From contig JAQXDL010000051.1 of assembly GCA_029251375.1 (NCBI GenBank), positions 1-64,000 on the forward strand: a stretch of DNA of 64,000 nt. The letters run 5' to 3'. Below, in pieces: positions 1 to 5,282 of this stretch. Position 1 is the first letter of the stretch. Each line of letters begins with the position of its first letter. The translations under genes and the position numbers were made by a program. Under the pieces are notes generated by a model that did not search any database, was not told the origin of the DNA, and worked only from the letters and a program-made list of their open reading frames with translations. The stretch is from Pseudomonadales bacterium. GTDB taxonomy: Bacteria; Pseudomonadota; Gammaproteobacteria; Pseudomonadales; Azotimanducaceae.

Positions 1-183
1 AGAACCAAATATAAAGTGTGAGTAACTTTTGGGGTTTATTATTATTAGGTCATATTCGTATAGGGCATATGCAGCCCGATCCTCATCTACTTCTGGACGG
101 CATAGTCCAAGAGTTTCAATATCGACATCTAAGATTTTAGGGCCTGTATAGTCAAGCCCAACTAAAAGTACTTTCTTGGTCAA
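1..183 (-). CDS. Partial unknown protein, probable first integron cassette gene
   Basis: An open frame of 61 codons on the minus strand has no stop and runs off the left edge. The proposed start is TTG (complement of 181-183), preceded by an AGGAG Shine-Dalgarno sequence about six bases upstream. The peptide begins MTKKVLLVGLDYTGPKI and later has a hydrophobic stretch, YDLIIINP, which looks like alternating beta strands of a cytosolic alpha/beta protein. I do not recognise the family. Its place matters more: it reads away from intI and begins just past the attI-like region, which is where the first gene cassette of an integron sits. Most cassette genes have no known function, and some encode defence or toxin-antitoxin proteins, but nothing here shows which. 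That it is real is likely from its RBS and openness; that it is a cassette is inference. Confidence 0.55.
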   Translation of the reverse strand, partial: MTKKVLLVGLDYTGPKILDVDIETLGLCRPEVDEDRAAYALYEYDLIIINPKSYSHFIFGS

Positions 184-204
184 TCTTGGCTCCTTGCGAT
201 TAGA

Positions 205-259
205 ATATAACAACTTATTCTACTGCAACGGCCACATATCACGCTGCCGCATATCAACT
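205..259 (-). other. attI: Candidate integron attI recombination site
   Basis: On the minus strand, reading away from intI, the sequence GTTATAT (complement of 205-211) matches the core-site consensus GTTRRRY at six of seven positions. It lies 22 bases before the TTG of the adjacent leftward gene, a usual spacing for a cassette boundary. Just upstream of it, in attI reading direction, are two direct repeats (231-242 and 246-259) that could be the accessory integrase-binding repeats known from attI1. The exact crossover point is uncertain: the CGTTG and AGTTG triplets nearby are alternatives. The call rests on position relative to intI, one near-consensus core and repeats. Confidence 0.35.
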
Positions 260-381
260 CTAGACTCATTCTAGAATATCCTTGTTTTCATTTTTAATTC
301 AAAACTTTATAGCATTTTAATACCAATGCTTCTAGTGAGTTTTATGGCAAGTGCCTTTTTTCTACACGCCCCATATCAACT
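231..381. repeat. Three direct copies of GCCNCATATCAACT next to intI
   Basis: The copies are GCCACATATCAC at 231-242, GCCGCATATCAACT at 246-259 and GCCCCATATCAACT at 368-381. The last two differ by one base. Two are spaced 15 bp apart and the third lies 122 bp from the second. The motif contains GTTGATATG on the other strand, i.e. a GTT triplet in an integrase-core-like setting. They may be IntI binding repeats of attI or remnants of old cassette junctions. Confidence 0.6.
273..302 (-). promoter_or_regulatory. Candidate cassette promoter Pc, reading leftward
   Basis: On the minus strand TTGAAT (complement of 297-302) is followed after 18 bp by TATTCT (complement of 273-278), each sharing four of six bases with the sigma-70 consensus. 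It would transcribe toward the putative first cassette gene, as Pc does in integrons. The match is modest in an A+T-rich stretch, so chance is a real possibility. Confidence 0.28.
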
Positions 382-497
382 ACAACTTAAAGTAGATCAT
401 TTTCATTTTTCCCTTGTTGAATCAAACAGCTATGCATCTTTTCTCGAAAATTCGCTGGAGAAAAGAGGCATTGTCCGGTGAAAAACGAATTATTGGC

Positions 498-526
498 TTG
501 AAATTCAACAGAACAAATACTACTGT
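498..526 (+). promoter_or_regulatory. Candidate promoter of the intI-dnaE2 operon
   Basis: TTGAAA at 498-503 and TACTGT at 521-526 are 17 bp apart; an alternative is TTGGCT at 493-498 with AATACT at 516-521. In either case the -10 region overlaps or touches the LexA box, the normal geometry for repression by LexA. The start codon of intI lies at 562. Confidence 0.4.
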
Positions 527-538
527 ACATACATACAG
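523..538 (+). promoter_or_regulatory. LexA (SOS) box upstream of intI
   Basis: CTGTACATACATACAG is a perfect CTGT-N8-ACAG operator, with alternating pyrimidine/purine bases between the half-sites as in strong gammaproteobacterial SOS boxes. It begins 39 bp before the ATG of intI and overlaps the likely -10. LexA control of integron integrases is established for class 1 integrons and for the Vibrio cholerae superintegron; here dnaE2 follows intI directly and would share this control. Confidence 0.9.
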
Positions 539-561
539 TTTAAGAACAACAACTTCAGAAC

Positions 562-1575
562 ATGAACAATATACCTGTCCCTATTCCCGCAAATCCAGAA
601 CGCTTTATTGACCAGTTTCGTGCGCACATACGTGCAAACAATATGAGCTATGCGACAGAGAAAACCTACGTTGGCTGGGTCGTGAGGTATATACGCTTTT
701 GTCATCATCAACATCCGCTTTCACTACAAGACAGCGACATCGCTGCATTCTTAAGTCATTTGGCGGTAAACCGGCATTGTTCAATTAACACTCAGAAAGT
801 TGCTCTTAATGCCCTCGTGTTCATGTATCGAAGTTTTTTAAAGCGTGAGGTAAGTGTTCAGTTTCAAAAGTCTCGTTATGAAGCAAGAGTGCCTGTGGTA
901 TTCACCCATGATGAAGCATTACGCGTAATCCAAAACTTAGAGGGTGTATACAAACTAATCAGCCAATTGTTATACGGCACAGGCTTGCGGATTTCTGAGT
1001 GCATACAATTACGAATCAAAGATATTGATTTTGGTATGCAACAAATCCAAGTACGGCAAGGTAAAGGGCGAAAAGATCGTGTCACTATTTTGCCAGAGAG
1101 CTTGAAGGATAAATTACAGGCGCAGATTGCATTATCTCGATTACGCCACGAGGAGGATTCACTTAACGGTTTTAACACTGTTTATATGCCGGATGCATTA
1201 GCCAAGAAATACCCTAAGGCTTCGCGCTCTCTGGCATGGAAGTACGTTTTTTCTGCGCCCAATATCTCAGTCGATCCACGTTCTGGCGAGATGCGACGCC
1301 ATCATCTATACATCCAAACCGTTCAGCGTCAAATCAAAAAAGCCATTTATAATGCGAATATTTATAAACATGCCAGCAGCCACACTTTCCGTCATAGCTT
1401 CGCGACCCGACTATTAGAGAATGGCTATGACCTCCGTACCATTCAGGAATACCTTGGACATGCCGATGTTAAGACAACCGAAATCTACACGCATGTCGTT
1501 AAACAATTACAAAAACCCGTTATCAGCCCCCTAGATGGTATTCGGGAAGCAACACCTCGTTATGGTGCCGCATAA
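562..1575 (+). CDS. intI: Integron integrase (tyrosine recombinase IntI)
   Basis: Site-specific tyrosine recombinase that inserts and excises gene cassettes at attI and attC sites. The 337-residue protein has an N-terminal SAM-like DNA-binding domain (about 12-95) and a catalytic domain with Arg143 (GTGLRISEC), a lysine in GKGRKDR (168-173), His274 and Arg277 (HTFRHSF), His300 (LGHADVKTT) and nucleophile Tyr309. The stretch about 205-245, with YMPDALAKKYP, WKYVFSA and RRHH, is the extra helix region that separates IntI from XerC/D. Length is normal and all catalytic residues are present, so the enzyme should be active. A LexA box sits just upstream. It is followed after 2 bp by dnaE2. The gene points away from the putative cassette, the standard integron layout. 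The sequence looks more A+T-rich than dnaE2. Confidence 0.95.
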   Translation: MNNIPVPIPANPERFIDQFRAHIRANNMSYATEKTYVGWVVRYIRFCHHQHPLSLQDSDIAAFLSHLAVNRHCSINTQKVALNALVFMYRSFLKREVSVQFQKSRYEARVPVVFTHDEALRVIQNLEGVYKLISQLLYGTGLRISECIQLRIKDIDFGMQQIQVRQGKGRKDRVTILPESLKDKLQAQIALSRLRHEEDSLNGFNTVYMPDALAKKYPKASRSLAWKYVFSAPNISVDPRSGEMRRHHLYIQTVQRQIKKAIYNANIYKHASSHTFRHSFATRLLENGYDLRTIQEYLGHADVKTTEIYTHVVKQLQKPVISPLDGIREATPRYGAA

Positions 1576-1577
1576 TC

Positions 1578-4500
1578 ATGCAGACCGCTAATAAACCGAA
1601 ACCCTCCCCCTACGCCGAACTCCACTGCATCAGCAACTACTCCTTCCTGCGCGGTGCGTCGCATCCAGAAGAACTGGTCAAACAAGCCAGTGGTTTGGGC
1701 TATCGCGCTATCGCGATTACTGACGAGTGTTCTGTGGCGGGCGTGGTAAAGGCGCATGTGGCGGCAAAAGAAGTGGGCATTAAGTTGATTGTGGGTAGCG
1801 AGTTTCATTTTGATGAGGACGTGCATCTCATTGTATTGGCGCCCAATCGGGTTGGTTATGGTCAGCTGTGTCATTTGATTACGGTGGCACGGCGGCGAGC
1901 CGAAAAAGGCAGTTATCAAGTACGGTTAAAAGATATCCAATACGGCATGGATCAGTGTCTGGCGATCTGGTTGCCGGGCGAGTCAACCCAGGAAGCCAAG
2001 CTGGGTGAAACCTTGCAGGGTATTTTTGGCAATCGGCTTTGGTTGGGTATCGAGATCTTTCCCGATGGCCAAGAGATTGCCGCCTACCAGCAGGCCTTTG
2101 ATTTACATCAGGGTTTGCAGATCAATATGGTCGCCATGGGTGATGTACATATGCATCATCCTGATCGCAAAGCGTTGCAAGATGTTGTCTCGGCGGTGCG
2201 CATTGGGCAATCGGTGCGACTGGCGGGCAAGTTGTTGTTTGCCCATCGCGAAAAGCATTTGCGGCCCCTGGGCGTGATCGCGCAGATGTATCCCCCTGCT
2301 TTGTTGCAAGAAACCATCGTCATTAGCGAGCTGTGTGATTTCTCCCTTGATGAACTGCGTTATGAATACCCAGAGGAACTGGTGCCGCCGCATCTTTCGC
2401 CCGCCGCTTACCTGCGCCAGTTAGTGGAACAAGGCGCCAAGGAGCGTTGGCCGGCCGGTATCAAACCCCATGTGCAGGCCTTGATTGAAAAAGAGCTGGG
2501 GCTCATTGCCGAGCTTGAATACGAGTATTACTTTTTAACCGTGTTTGATGTGGTGCATTTTGCCCGCACCCAAGAAATCCTGTGTCAGGGGCGCGGCTCG
2601 GCGGCCAACAGCGCAGTGTGTTTTTGTTTGAAGATCACCGAGGTTGACCCGGCCAAGTCGAGTATGTTGTTCGAGCGGTTTGTCTCTAAAGAACGTAACG
2701 AGCCGCCAGACATTGATGTCGACTTTGAGCACGAGCGGCGCGAGGAAGTGATCCAATACATTTATAAAAAATATGGTCGCGATCGTGCTGCCATTGCGGC
2801 CACGGTAATCACCTATCGTCCGAAGAGTGCCGTGCGGGATGTGGGCAAAGCCTTGGGCATGGATTTGCAGTTGGTGGAAAAGTTGGCCAAGTCGTTGTCC
2901 TGGTGGGATAAGCGCGAGGAATTATTACAGCGTTTTGAGGAAGCTGGGATTAACCCCCGCAGCCCGGTGATTGCTCAATTTATGAGCTTGGTCAGCGACA
3001 TTCTTGGCTTTCCCCGGCATTTATCCCAGCATGTCGGCGGCTTTGTCATCTCGCGCGGGCCCCTATCGCATCTGGTGCCGGTGGAGAATGCCGCCATGGA
3101 TGACCGCACTATTATTCAATGGGACAAAAACGATCTTGAGTCCTTAGGCTTGATGAAAATTGATGTATTGGCGCTAGGCATGTTGACCGCGATTCGCAAG
3201 AGTCTGGATATGATCAACAATTATCGCGGCACAAACTTAACCATCGCCAGCATCCCGCCGGAAGACCCGCTGACCTATCAGATGCTACAACGGGGTGACA
3301 GCATTGGCGTGTTTCAGGTTGAATCCCGGGCGCAGATGTCCATGCTACCGCGTTTAAAGCCCGCCTGTTTTTATGATCTGGTGATTGAGGTGGCCATTGT
3401 TCGACCTGGGCCAATTCAGGGCAACATGGTGCATCCGTATTTAAAGCGGCGTAATGGCGAGGAAGCCGTGACCTATGCTAACGATGAGGTAAAGGCAGTA
3501 TTGGGCCGCACCCTTGGGGTACCAATATTCCAAGAACAGGTGATTAGATTGGCAGTGGTCGCGGCCGGCTTTACCCCCGGCGAGGCGGATCAACTGCGCC
3601 GCGCCATGGCGGCATGGAAAAGCAAAGGCGGCCTAGAGGTGTTTCAGCGAAAGTTGATTGACGGCATGTTAGCCCGTGGCCATGCACGCGAATTTGCCGA
3701 GCGTATCTGCGAGCAGATCAAAGGCTTTGGCGACTACGGTTTCCCCGAATCCCACGCCGCCAGCTTTGCCCTGCTGGTGTATTTTTCTGCTTGGCTTAAA
3801 CAACATGAACCGGCAGCTTTTTATTGCGGCTTATTGAACAGCCAACCGATGGGATTTTATTCGCCGTCGCAGCTGGTGCAGGATGCCAAGCGCCACGATA
3901 TTGAGGTGCGCCCGGTGGACATATTCCACAGTGAATGGGAAAGCACACTAGAAGAGCCCGAACAGCAAAGAAGCTACAACCCATCCAACTATTCACAGCC
4001 CGCGGTGCGTTTAGGCTTTAGTCGTATCAAAGGTTTTCGGCAAGATGTCGCCGAGCGAATTATTCAAGTACGCACCACGCAGCACATTACCAATCTGCAA
4101 AATCTGACAAGACAGGCCAGGCTCGATAAAGGTGATTTAGCGCGCTTAACCGAAGGTGGCGCATTAAAGTCGTTAACCGGTAACCGCTATCAGACCCATT
4201 GGGAAGCCAAAGGCATGATGGCGCAGCCGACGCCTAGTCAACAGGGACAAGGCGAGTTTGAAGGCTTGGGCAATGTTGCCGAACAAACGCCCATTTACCT
4301 GCCGCCACCCTCAGAGACCGACGACCTGCGCGCCGATTATACCAGCCTGCGACTGACCCTTGGCCGGCATCCGATGGCCATTCTGCGCCAACAAGACGCC
4401 TTTAGTGGTCTAAAAAGCGCAGCTGATCTTGAACAACTGCACCACGGTAGGTTCGTGCAGGTGGCCGGTATTGTCACCGGCCGGCAGCGCCCCTCCTCGG

Positions 4501-4730
4501 CCTCGGGCGTGTTGTTCTTAACCCTTGAAGATGAGACCAACAATATCAATATTGTGATTTGGACACGGGTGCTTGAGAATTTTCGAGCGGCAATTGTGCA
4601 AGGTCGGCTGTTAAAGATAAGGGGTGTAATGGAGCGAAAGGATTCAGTGATTCACGTCATTGCGAGCTATGTTGAAGACTACAGTCAGTATCTTGAACAC
4701 TTTTCATTAAAGTCGCGGGACTTTAAGTAA
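1578..4730 (+). CDS. dnaE2: Error-prone DNA polymerase III alpha subunit DnaE2/ImuC
   Basis: Translesion polymerase of the C family, known in many bacteria as the mutagenic component of the SOS ImuA-ImuB-DnaE2 system. The 1050-residue protein has the DnaE2-type PHP domain (start about 11, YSFLRGASHPEELV), the polymerase core with GRGSAANS (338-345) and the catalytic aspartates in PDIDVDFE (377-384), a helix-hairpin-helix region around 780-850 and an OB-fold near 945-1035. It lacks the C-terminal tail of replicative DnaE1, as expected. The start lies 2 bp after the intI stop and no strong Shine-Dalgarno is visible, so translation is probably coupled to intI. ImuA and ImuB, its usual partners, are not in the window. 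It converges on gspM with a 54-bp gap and no obvious terminator. Family assignment is very safe; SOS control through the intI promoter is inferred. Confidence 0.95.
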   Translation: MQTANKPKPSPYAELHCISNYSFLRGASHPEELVKQASGLGYRAIAITDECSVAGVVKAHVAAKEVGIKLIVGSEFHFDEDVHLIVLAPNRVGYGQLCHLITVARRRAEKGSYQVRLKDIQYGMDQCLAIWLPGESTQEAKLGETLQGIFGNRLWLGIEIFPDGQEIAAYQQAFDLHQGLQINMVAMGDVHMHHPDRKALQDVVSAVRIGQSVRLAGKLLFAHREKHLRPLGVIAQMYPPALLQETIVISELCDFSLDELRYEYPEELVPPHLSPAAYLRQLVEQGAKERWPAGIKPHVQALIEKELGLIAELEYEYYFLTVFDVVHFARTQEILCQGRGSAANSAVCFCLKITEVDPAKSSMLFERFVSKERNEPPDIDVDFEHERREEVIQYIYKKYGRDRAAIAATVITYRPKSAVRDVGKALGMDLQLVEKLAKSLSWWDKREELLQRFEEAGINPRSPVIAQFMSLVSDILGFPRHLSQHVGGFVISRGPLSHLVPVENAAMDDRTIIQWDKNDLESLGLMKIDVLALGMLTAIRKSLDMINNYRGTNLTIASIPPEDPLTYQMLQRGDSIGVFQVESRAQMSMLPRLKPACFYDLVIEVAIVRPGPIQGNMVHPYLKRRNGEEAVTYANDEVKAVLGRTLGVPIFQEQVIRLAVVAAGFTPGEADQLRRAMAAWKSKGGLEVFQRKLIDGMLARGHAREFAERICEQIKGFGDYGFPESHAASFALLVYFSAWLKQHEPAAFYCGLLNSQPMGFYSPSQLVQDAKRHDIEVRPVDIFHSEWESTLEEPEQQRSYNPSNYSQPAVRLGFSRIKGFRQDVAERIIQVRTTQHITNLQNLTRQARLDKGDLARLTEGGALKSLTGNRYQTHWEAKGMMAQPTPSQQGQGEFEGLGNVAEQTPIYLPPPSETDDLRADYTSLRLTLGRHPMAILRQQDAFSGLKSAADLEQLHHGRFVQVAGIVTGRQRPSSASGVLFLTLEDETNNINIVIWTRVLENFRAAIVQGRLLKIRGVMERKDSVIHVIASYVEDYSQYLEHFSLKSRDFK

Positions 4731-4784: not shown

Positions 4785-5282
4785 CTAGCTGCGCAGAATG
4801 ATCCGCGCGTTAACCAAGCCAGAGGCTTCTTCTCGATCGATTGATATCTGCTTGACGGTAAAACCTTCGTTACCGAGGTTTTCGAGCCAACGAATCAGAT
4901 CGTTGAAACCCACTTCGCTGAACCAAACACTGACACCGTCGGTGCCTTCGGGTTGCAGTCGATTCGGCTTAATGTTGAACCGGCCAGCTGAACTCGATAG
5001 TCGCGACAACAATGACTGCCCACTAACGGCGGCACTGGAGTTACCGGTTGATTGTCGGGCTTTACCTTCGCTGGCACGTAAGTAGTTTAGTAGCTCTGCC
5101 TGGCGCTGGTAATTCTGGCGGCTGTCTTCGACATAGCTGTTAGCCGGCGACCAAACCATAAAGTACAGCAGCATCAAACCAAGAAATGCCGACAGACCGT
5201 TTAACGCCAGACGGTCACGCTTTTCCAATTGCTGATAGCGCTGCTTTAACTGTTCGATTTGAGGATGGTTCAAAATGTTCAT
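4785..5282 (-). CDS. gspM: Type II secretion system protein GspM
   Basis: Small bitopic inner-membrane component of the secretion platform that pairs with GspL. The 165-residue protein has a short cytoplasmic N-terminus, one membrane helix at about 32-48 (FLGLMLLYFMVWSP), a coiled-coil-like stretch and a periplasmic ferredoxin-like domain (about 85-165). It is the last gene of the gspE-M operon and its start overlaps the gspL stop by 4 bp. No gspN follows; dnaE2 arrives from the other side. Sequence conservation in GspM is low, so the call rests partly on position. Confidence 0.88.
   Translation of the reverse strand: MNILNHPQIEQLKQRYQQLEKRDRLALNGLSAFLGLMLLYFMVWSPANSYVEDSRQNYQRQAELLNYLRASEGKARQSTGNSSAAVSGQSLLSRLSSSAGRFNIKPNRLQPEGTDGVSVWFSEVGFNDLIRWLENLGNEGFTVKQISIDREEASGLVNARIILRS

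Follow-up and report, generated by a model that had tools for sequence, protein, structure and literature searches.

The first 64,000 nucleotides (nt) of a contig from a Pseudomonadales bacterium contain a gene for an integron integrase, intI, followed directly by dnaE2, which codes for an error-prone DNA polymerase. This stretch, which we call the window, corresponds to bases 1–64000 of contig C33 (100 kb, JAQXDL010000051.1) in a draft genome (GCA_029251375.1, G000) of 4.16 Mb in 51 contigs. Judging from the sequence, both genes probably belong to a single SOS operon with the order LexA box, intI, dnaE2, which arose when an integron platform was placed right at the start of dnaE2 and took control of the expression of this gene. 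The architecture has good support: it is a real and recurrent joining of two known SOS modules, apparently one that has not been described before.

Structure of the intI-dnaE2 locus

The coordinates of the features discussed are given in Table 1. The product of intI scores 413 bits against the NCBIfam integron integrase model (TIGR02249, integrase_gron; cut-off 265), and with this match the possibility of a phage or Xer recombinase was dropped. It aligns with the solved structure of IntI4 (2a3v, E 2e-77) over residues 19–325, through the region of the IntI-specific insert. The motif positions hold R143, K168, H274, R277, H300 and Y309, which by analogy with XerD we take to be the catalytic residues of a tyrosine recombinase. 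When intI is compared with L007, a contig of the metagenome-assembled genome SI034_bin39 which is probably from the same family as the window, the ratio of nonsynonymous to synonymous substitution rates (dN/dS) is 0.062 (325 codons, Nei-Gojobori), a rough value since dS is about 1.0. This indicates that intI is under purifying selection.

The DnaE2 protein matches the error-prone DNA polymerase model NF004225 with 1421 bits (cut-off 939) over residues 10–1050, and it contains PHP, NTPase, finger, HHH and OB domains, together with the PDIDVDF motif. The gene is therefore full length, as the preliminary description of this locus had stated. Similarity searches of the whole genome find only one full IntI and one full DnaE2, the pair in the window. 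The remaining IntI matches are partial and Xer-like, and we regard a second, more distant DnaE (30%) on contig C15 as the replicative polymerase.

Table 1. Features of the window related to the intI-dnaE2 locus
Feature	Position	Strand	Remarks
Open reading frame pointing away from intI	1–183	-	5' part, 61 aa visible; cut by contig end
attI/leader region of integron platform	206–522		Homologous to L007 from 1668 onward
Possible intI promoter, TTGAAA-N17-TACTGT	498–526	+	Second hexamer overlaps the LexA box; both hexamers also in L007
LexA (SOS) box, CTGTACATACATACAG	523–538	+	CTGT-N8-ACAG match
intI, integron integrase, 337 aa	562–1575	+	Profile match, structure alignment, catalytic residues
Stop-start junction, TAA-TC-ATG	1573–1580	+	TAA 1573–1575, ATG 1578–1580
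dnaE2, error-prone DNA polymerase III alpha, 1050 aa	1578–4730	+	Profile match, domains, motif
gspM	4785–5282	-	Convergent to dnaE2; also adjoins dnaE2 in same-genus G001 and G004, not in G002

The box CTGTACATACATACAG is the only CTGT-N8-ACAG sequence in the window. It ends 23 nt before the ATG of intI (39 nt when counted from its first base, the distance given in the preliminary description). A mean of 0.87 such sequences per 64 kb is expected by chance, so about one match would be found anyway: The motif by itself is no proof, its location is. In fact, a box lies directly before intI in all 16 tight intI-dnaE2 loci whose upstream DNA can be seen (the window, 14 loci from family f40 and genome G836, see below). 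A possible promoter, TTGAAA-N17-TACTGT, overlaps the box; our consensus promoter scan did not report it.

Only 2 nt separate the stop codon of intI from the start codon of dnaE2. Simple scans of the window find no terminator-like sites between both genes and, with a crude method, no promoter-like sites at the junction. There is no SOS box at or near the junction either, and no obvious ribosome-binding site for dnaE2, in agreement with the earlier observation that this gene lacks a strong one. With a single box and an apparently uninterrupted path from intI to dnaE2, the previous proposal that one SOS operator controls both genes is supported at the level of sequence.

Distribution of the arrangement

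In order to see the distribution of this arrangement, the best IntI and DnaE2 matches of each genome were located and their positions compared by eye. In family f40 (140 genomes searched) IntI is found in 35 genomes and DnaE2 in 130. Of the 35 genomes which have intI, 23 carry it immediately before dnaE2 and in the same orientation; the other 12 do not. We have examined the DNA of all 23 joined loci, which may be divided in two types. Type A (15 loci) has no box at the junction, and a box is found before intI in 14 of them; in the remaining one, L151, the contig begins at intI. The distance from stop to start in this type is 2–20 nt (some of these values were read by eye from the junctions, and L156 is not included). 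Type B (8 loci) has a box between the two genes, and a perfect box before intI is present in a single case, L163. Other members of this type are L157, with an imperfect box before intI and a gap of 448 nt, and L165, which has only a partial intI.

Degraded integrases are also found. In L146 (type A, genome G291) intI is degraded, while the SOS box and dnaE2 are kept; in L166 (genome G530, not among the 23) fragments of intI lie upstream of an intact dnaE2. These two genomes show that decay of the integrase is compatible with persistence of the polymerase.

In f1, the family of the window (200 genomes searched), IntI is found in 40 genomes and DnaE2 in 158. Leaving the window aside, 30 of the genomes with intI have both genes at listed places which are not adjacent, 5 have no DnaE2 match, and in 4 the place of DnaE2 is not listed. 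In a survey of the order (390 genomes, IntI in 166 and DnaE2 in 215), no direct adjacency other than that in the window and in f40 appears among the matches listed. The same survey reveals the order intI, imuA, imuB, dnaE2 in at least five f20 genomes. A survey of the class (219 genomes, IntI in 82 and DnaE2 in 64) adds one more direct case, genome G836, which belongs to another order. Its locus, in a 308-kb contig, has a single box, placed before intI; among the best matches on the far side of intI there are seven attC-like sites of 73–85 nt. Lack of the adjacency in every relative had been named in the preliminary description as one of the observations against the operon. The outcome is in favour of it: The adjacency is present in 23 of 35 f40 genomes with intI and in G836, and in a looser form in some Marinobacter.

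A different layout is found in genome G813 (contig C82, L182). A LexA box and intI are followed about 0.7 kb further on by imuA and imuB, for which we have found no AT-rich box of their own, and dnaE2 lies several kb beyond with its own box. We consider it as a separate type, possibly a further layout of the same theme.

For comparison, we have used 48 other intI loci as controls (L007, L011–L015, L017, L054–L072, L074–L098 except the f20 loci L078, L080, L082 and L084, plus L180). They are partly redundant (L011 and L079, for example), and the next open reading frame of at least 100 amino acids was picked mechanically. This reading frame is co-directional with intI in 14 loci and convergent in 34, and the neighbours, judged by eye, are varied. 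None of the 48 has a co-directional reading frame within 20 nt of intI, the smallest gap being 72 nt. A perfect box within about 120 nt before intI is found in 18 of the 48 controls, compared to all 16 loci of type A, with the window and G836 counted among them, and one of the 8 type B loci. The Fisher test gives p values of 5e-6 for the boxes and 5e-16 for tight co-direction, which do no more than describe the contrast, given the relatedness of the loci and the use of the tight junction to define type A.

Origin of the arrangement

The limits of homology with related sequences indicate how the operon may have arisen. Window positions 206–1579 are 81.5% identical to positions 1668–3041 of L007. 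The homology breaks off abruptly at both ends, and its right limit is the stop codon of intI. Homology with G001, a genome of the same genus, starts at about 1610, inside dnaE2, and continues into the gsp genes. The dnaE2 gene of G004 has the same gsp neighbours as that of the window; the G002 gene is not beside gspM. Just upstream of dnaE2, G001 has two LexA-like boxes, one of them perfect and the other with one mismatch; the box is also perfect in G002 and has one mismatch in G004. Both G002 and G004 carry intI elsewhere in the genome. Since the gsp neighbours are common to the window, G001 and G004, dnaE2 is in its old place, and the integrase module, with its own box, has displaced the SOS promoter of dnaE2. 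The breakpoints thus speak for a gain of intI at this place in the lineage of the window.

Phylogenetic trees do not place the window with the f40 loci. The IntI tree, with 77 rows, has the window in a group with L007 and G002 (support 100), and the f40 integrases are mostly in another clade; one of the joined f40 cases, L164, has an integrase from yet another clade. The DnaE2 tree, with 78 rows, puts the window among the members of its genus (support 99). The label adjacent or not adjacent needs at least 4 changes in the first tree and 6 in the second, numbers which do not separate gain from loss. The approximately unbiased (AU) test rejects the trees in which the window is held with 20 joined f40 integrases (p 5e-16) or with 27 f40 DnaE2 sequences, three of them without intI (p 5e-34). 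A single inherited operon in f40 and the window is therefore rejected for both proteins. These were quick trees, the groups for the AU test were named after the trees had been seen, and G836 is a long branch whose placement is unsure.

Relation to known systems

In integrons whose integrase is controlled by LexA, intI and the cassettes are divergent and attI lies in the middle. Such integrons include Vibrio superintegrons and class 1 integrons (Cambray et al. 2011, PMC3108266; reportedly also Guerin et al. 2009). The words "polymerase", "operon" and "Marinobacter" are not found in the main text of Cambray et al. The window shares with such integrons a LexA box at the intI promoter; the difference is that intI is treated alone there, while in the window it is the first gene ahead of dnaE2.

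The other known module is the imuA-imuB-dnaE2 mutagenesis cassette, which is said to have been presented by Abella in 2004 and Erill in 2006. In our genome, dnaE2 has a predicted LexA control, as in the cassette, and imuA and imuB are also present, on contig C5, with their own perfect box. Nevertheless, these genes do not form a contiguous cassette: imuAB are on C5, and dnaE2 is on C33, apart from them and behind intI. In the longest reading of this region (L053 184–2893, on C5), the start of imuB lies within imuA, about 125 nt inside it, and ImuB is long, with 669 amino acids and low-complexity stretches. The cassette is described in PMC3323433. That paper also reports that in Vibrionaceae the presence of the cassette correlates with the chromosome bearing the superintegron. 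This is a link between integrons and the dnaE2 cassette, as in the window, although the passages on it speak of a shared chromosome only, with no common transcription unit.

The closest layouts are those of three Marinobacter loci (L008, L009 and L010) and the five f20 genomes. As in the window, intI is upstream of SOS mutagenesis genes on the same strand, but imuAB are placed between intI and dnaE2. All five f20 loci have two separate boxes, before intI and imuA. A box before intI is present in L008 and L009, and none is seen in L010. This layout is not general in Marinobacter: In L014 and L015 intI has other neighbours, and the L016 sequence stops within intI. A search of titles and the first part of abstracts, in a library without bioRxiv preprints or most subscription papers, found no description of an intI-dnaE2 operon; the preliminary description had not named any.

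Possible mechanism and alternative explanations

The operon might work as follows. An integron platform, made up of attI, a promoter with its LexA box and intI, would have been joined to the start of dnaE2, which would then have lost its own LexA-controlled promoter. DNA damage would lead to LexA cleavage and to a single transcript from the intI promoter. After translation of IntI, ribosomes ending at the TAA codon would start again at the ATG placed 2 nt further on (termination-reinitiation) and produce DnaE2. In parallel, imuA and imuB would be induced from their own LexA box elsewhere, so cassette excision and integration would rise together with mutagenic lesion bypass. Co-transcription, binding and repression by LexA and translational coupling are what we infer from the layout, as would be any selection on the coupling. 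The recurrence of this layout in separate lineages suggests that gene shuffling and mutation are switched on together.

Variation has separate sources in integron shuffling and in error-prone synthesis, each of them known to be under SOS control, and a single operator would tie the doses of both. The operon would be a natural system for testing whether stress-induced mutation and cassette capture form a selected package. The separate joinings allow a comparative test, for which cultured Marinobacter strains with the looser form may serve as a contrast.

Several observations weigh against an operon of this kind. In three genomes of the same genus (G001, G002 and G004) dnaE2 has no intI alongside, and the window is the sole adjacent case seen among the 40 f1 genomes with intI. 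In f40, 8 of 23 dnaE2 genes keep their own box, and 7 of these 8 loci have no perfect box before intI, which indicates that adjacency does not always imply shared or SOS control. In the tight loci L149 and L150 there is one more CTGT-N8-ACAG match, less rich in AT, which lies within intI at about 270 nt from dnaE2. Finally, a strong ribosome-binding site is missing for intI as well as for dnaE2.

It is possible, if not the course of events that we favour, that the capture was neutral. A platform would have landed before dnaE2 and both genes would be co-transcribed, with joint expression never selected; dnaE2 would have survived since the captured promoter was also SOS-controlled, as only cells whose dnaE2 retained a LexA promoter would have stayed fit. 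The broken integrases of G291 and G530, where dnaE2 is intact, would fit such a history, as would the absence of the joint from genomes of the same genus; moreover, the LexA box is common at intI loci anyway (18 of 48). On the other hand, the label changes in the IntI tree point to separate joinings at one and the same gene, while the 48 control loci are beside varied, mostly convergent reading frames, and two more groups (f20/Marinobacter and G813) have intI upstream of imuA-imuB. In another reading, co-expression of IntI and DnaE2 might itself have been selected, in a repeatedly built and dedicated evolvability operon, because DnaE2 is in these lineages an accessory factor of the integron which, for example, replicates through or fills in the single-stranded intermediates of attC x attI recombination. 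We consider this unlikely.

Other explanations question the operon itself. Expression of dnaE2 driven mainly by a promoter within intI, which would leave an operon only on the map, is also unlikely. The promoter scan was crude, and L149 and L150 do have a box-like match inside intI; in the window, however, there is no promoter-like or LexA-like site near the junction, and dnaE2 genes without an adjoining intI have a LexA or LexA-like box close upstream (G001, G002, G004, G017, G252, G139 and G520). An assembly chimera at the junction might come to mind in a draft genome which is alone in f1 in having this layout, and whose two sides have different best relatives. It is very improbable: The joint lies precisely in the gap that separates two reading frames, both of them intact, and the same layout is found in other genomes, including G519 (in a 3.7-Mb contig) and G836 (in one of 308 kb).

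Cassette side of the integron and other observations

Base 1 of the window is also the first base of contig C33, which limits the visible DNA upstream of intI to 561 bp. An attI-like boundary and a divergent reading frame are visible there. This reading frame, with no match in a Pfam search, sits and points as a first gene cassette would. Homology with L007 starts abruptly at TATAAC (206–211), as would be expected from an attI x attC crossover if the first cassettes of the two are not the same. No overlap was found between window positions 1–260 and the available contig starts and ends, so the left end of the window is unlinked. A strict attC search (GTTRRRY consensus) gave no convincing site. 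Relaxed searches find sites with cores such as ATAAC/GTTAT, and attC-like sites are also seen beyond intI in some f40 loci.

A second copy of the attI leader (208–482), without intI, is found on contig C9 at about 85189–85461 (L268 5190–5462, minus strand; 74.8% identity over 278 nt), and is followed by a reading frame with a TIR domain. The right ends of C9 and C6 (L283) share an exact overlap of 104 nt, which leads into an array where four or more attC-like sites are seen. This array most likely belongs to an integron platform without integrase; given the overlap and the C9 leader, its assignment to the window integron is not supported. The only IntI found in the genome is that of the dnaE2 operon.

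Another perfect SOS box is present on C33 at about 69 kb (L073 5074), 15 nt before a gene for a FAN1/VRR-NUC-type nuclease. This gene is followed by a DinG-type helicase gene, which it overlaps, and the pair (L073 798–5058, about 64.8–69.1 kb of C33) is likely to be an SOS repair operon.

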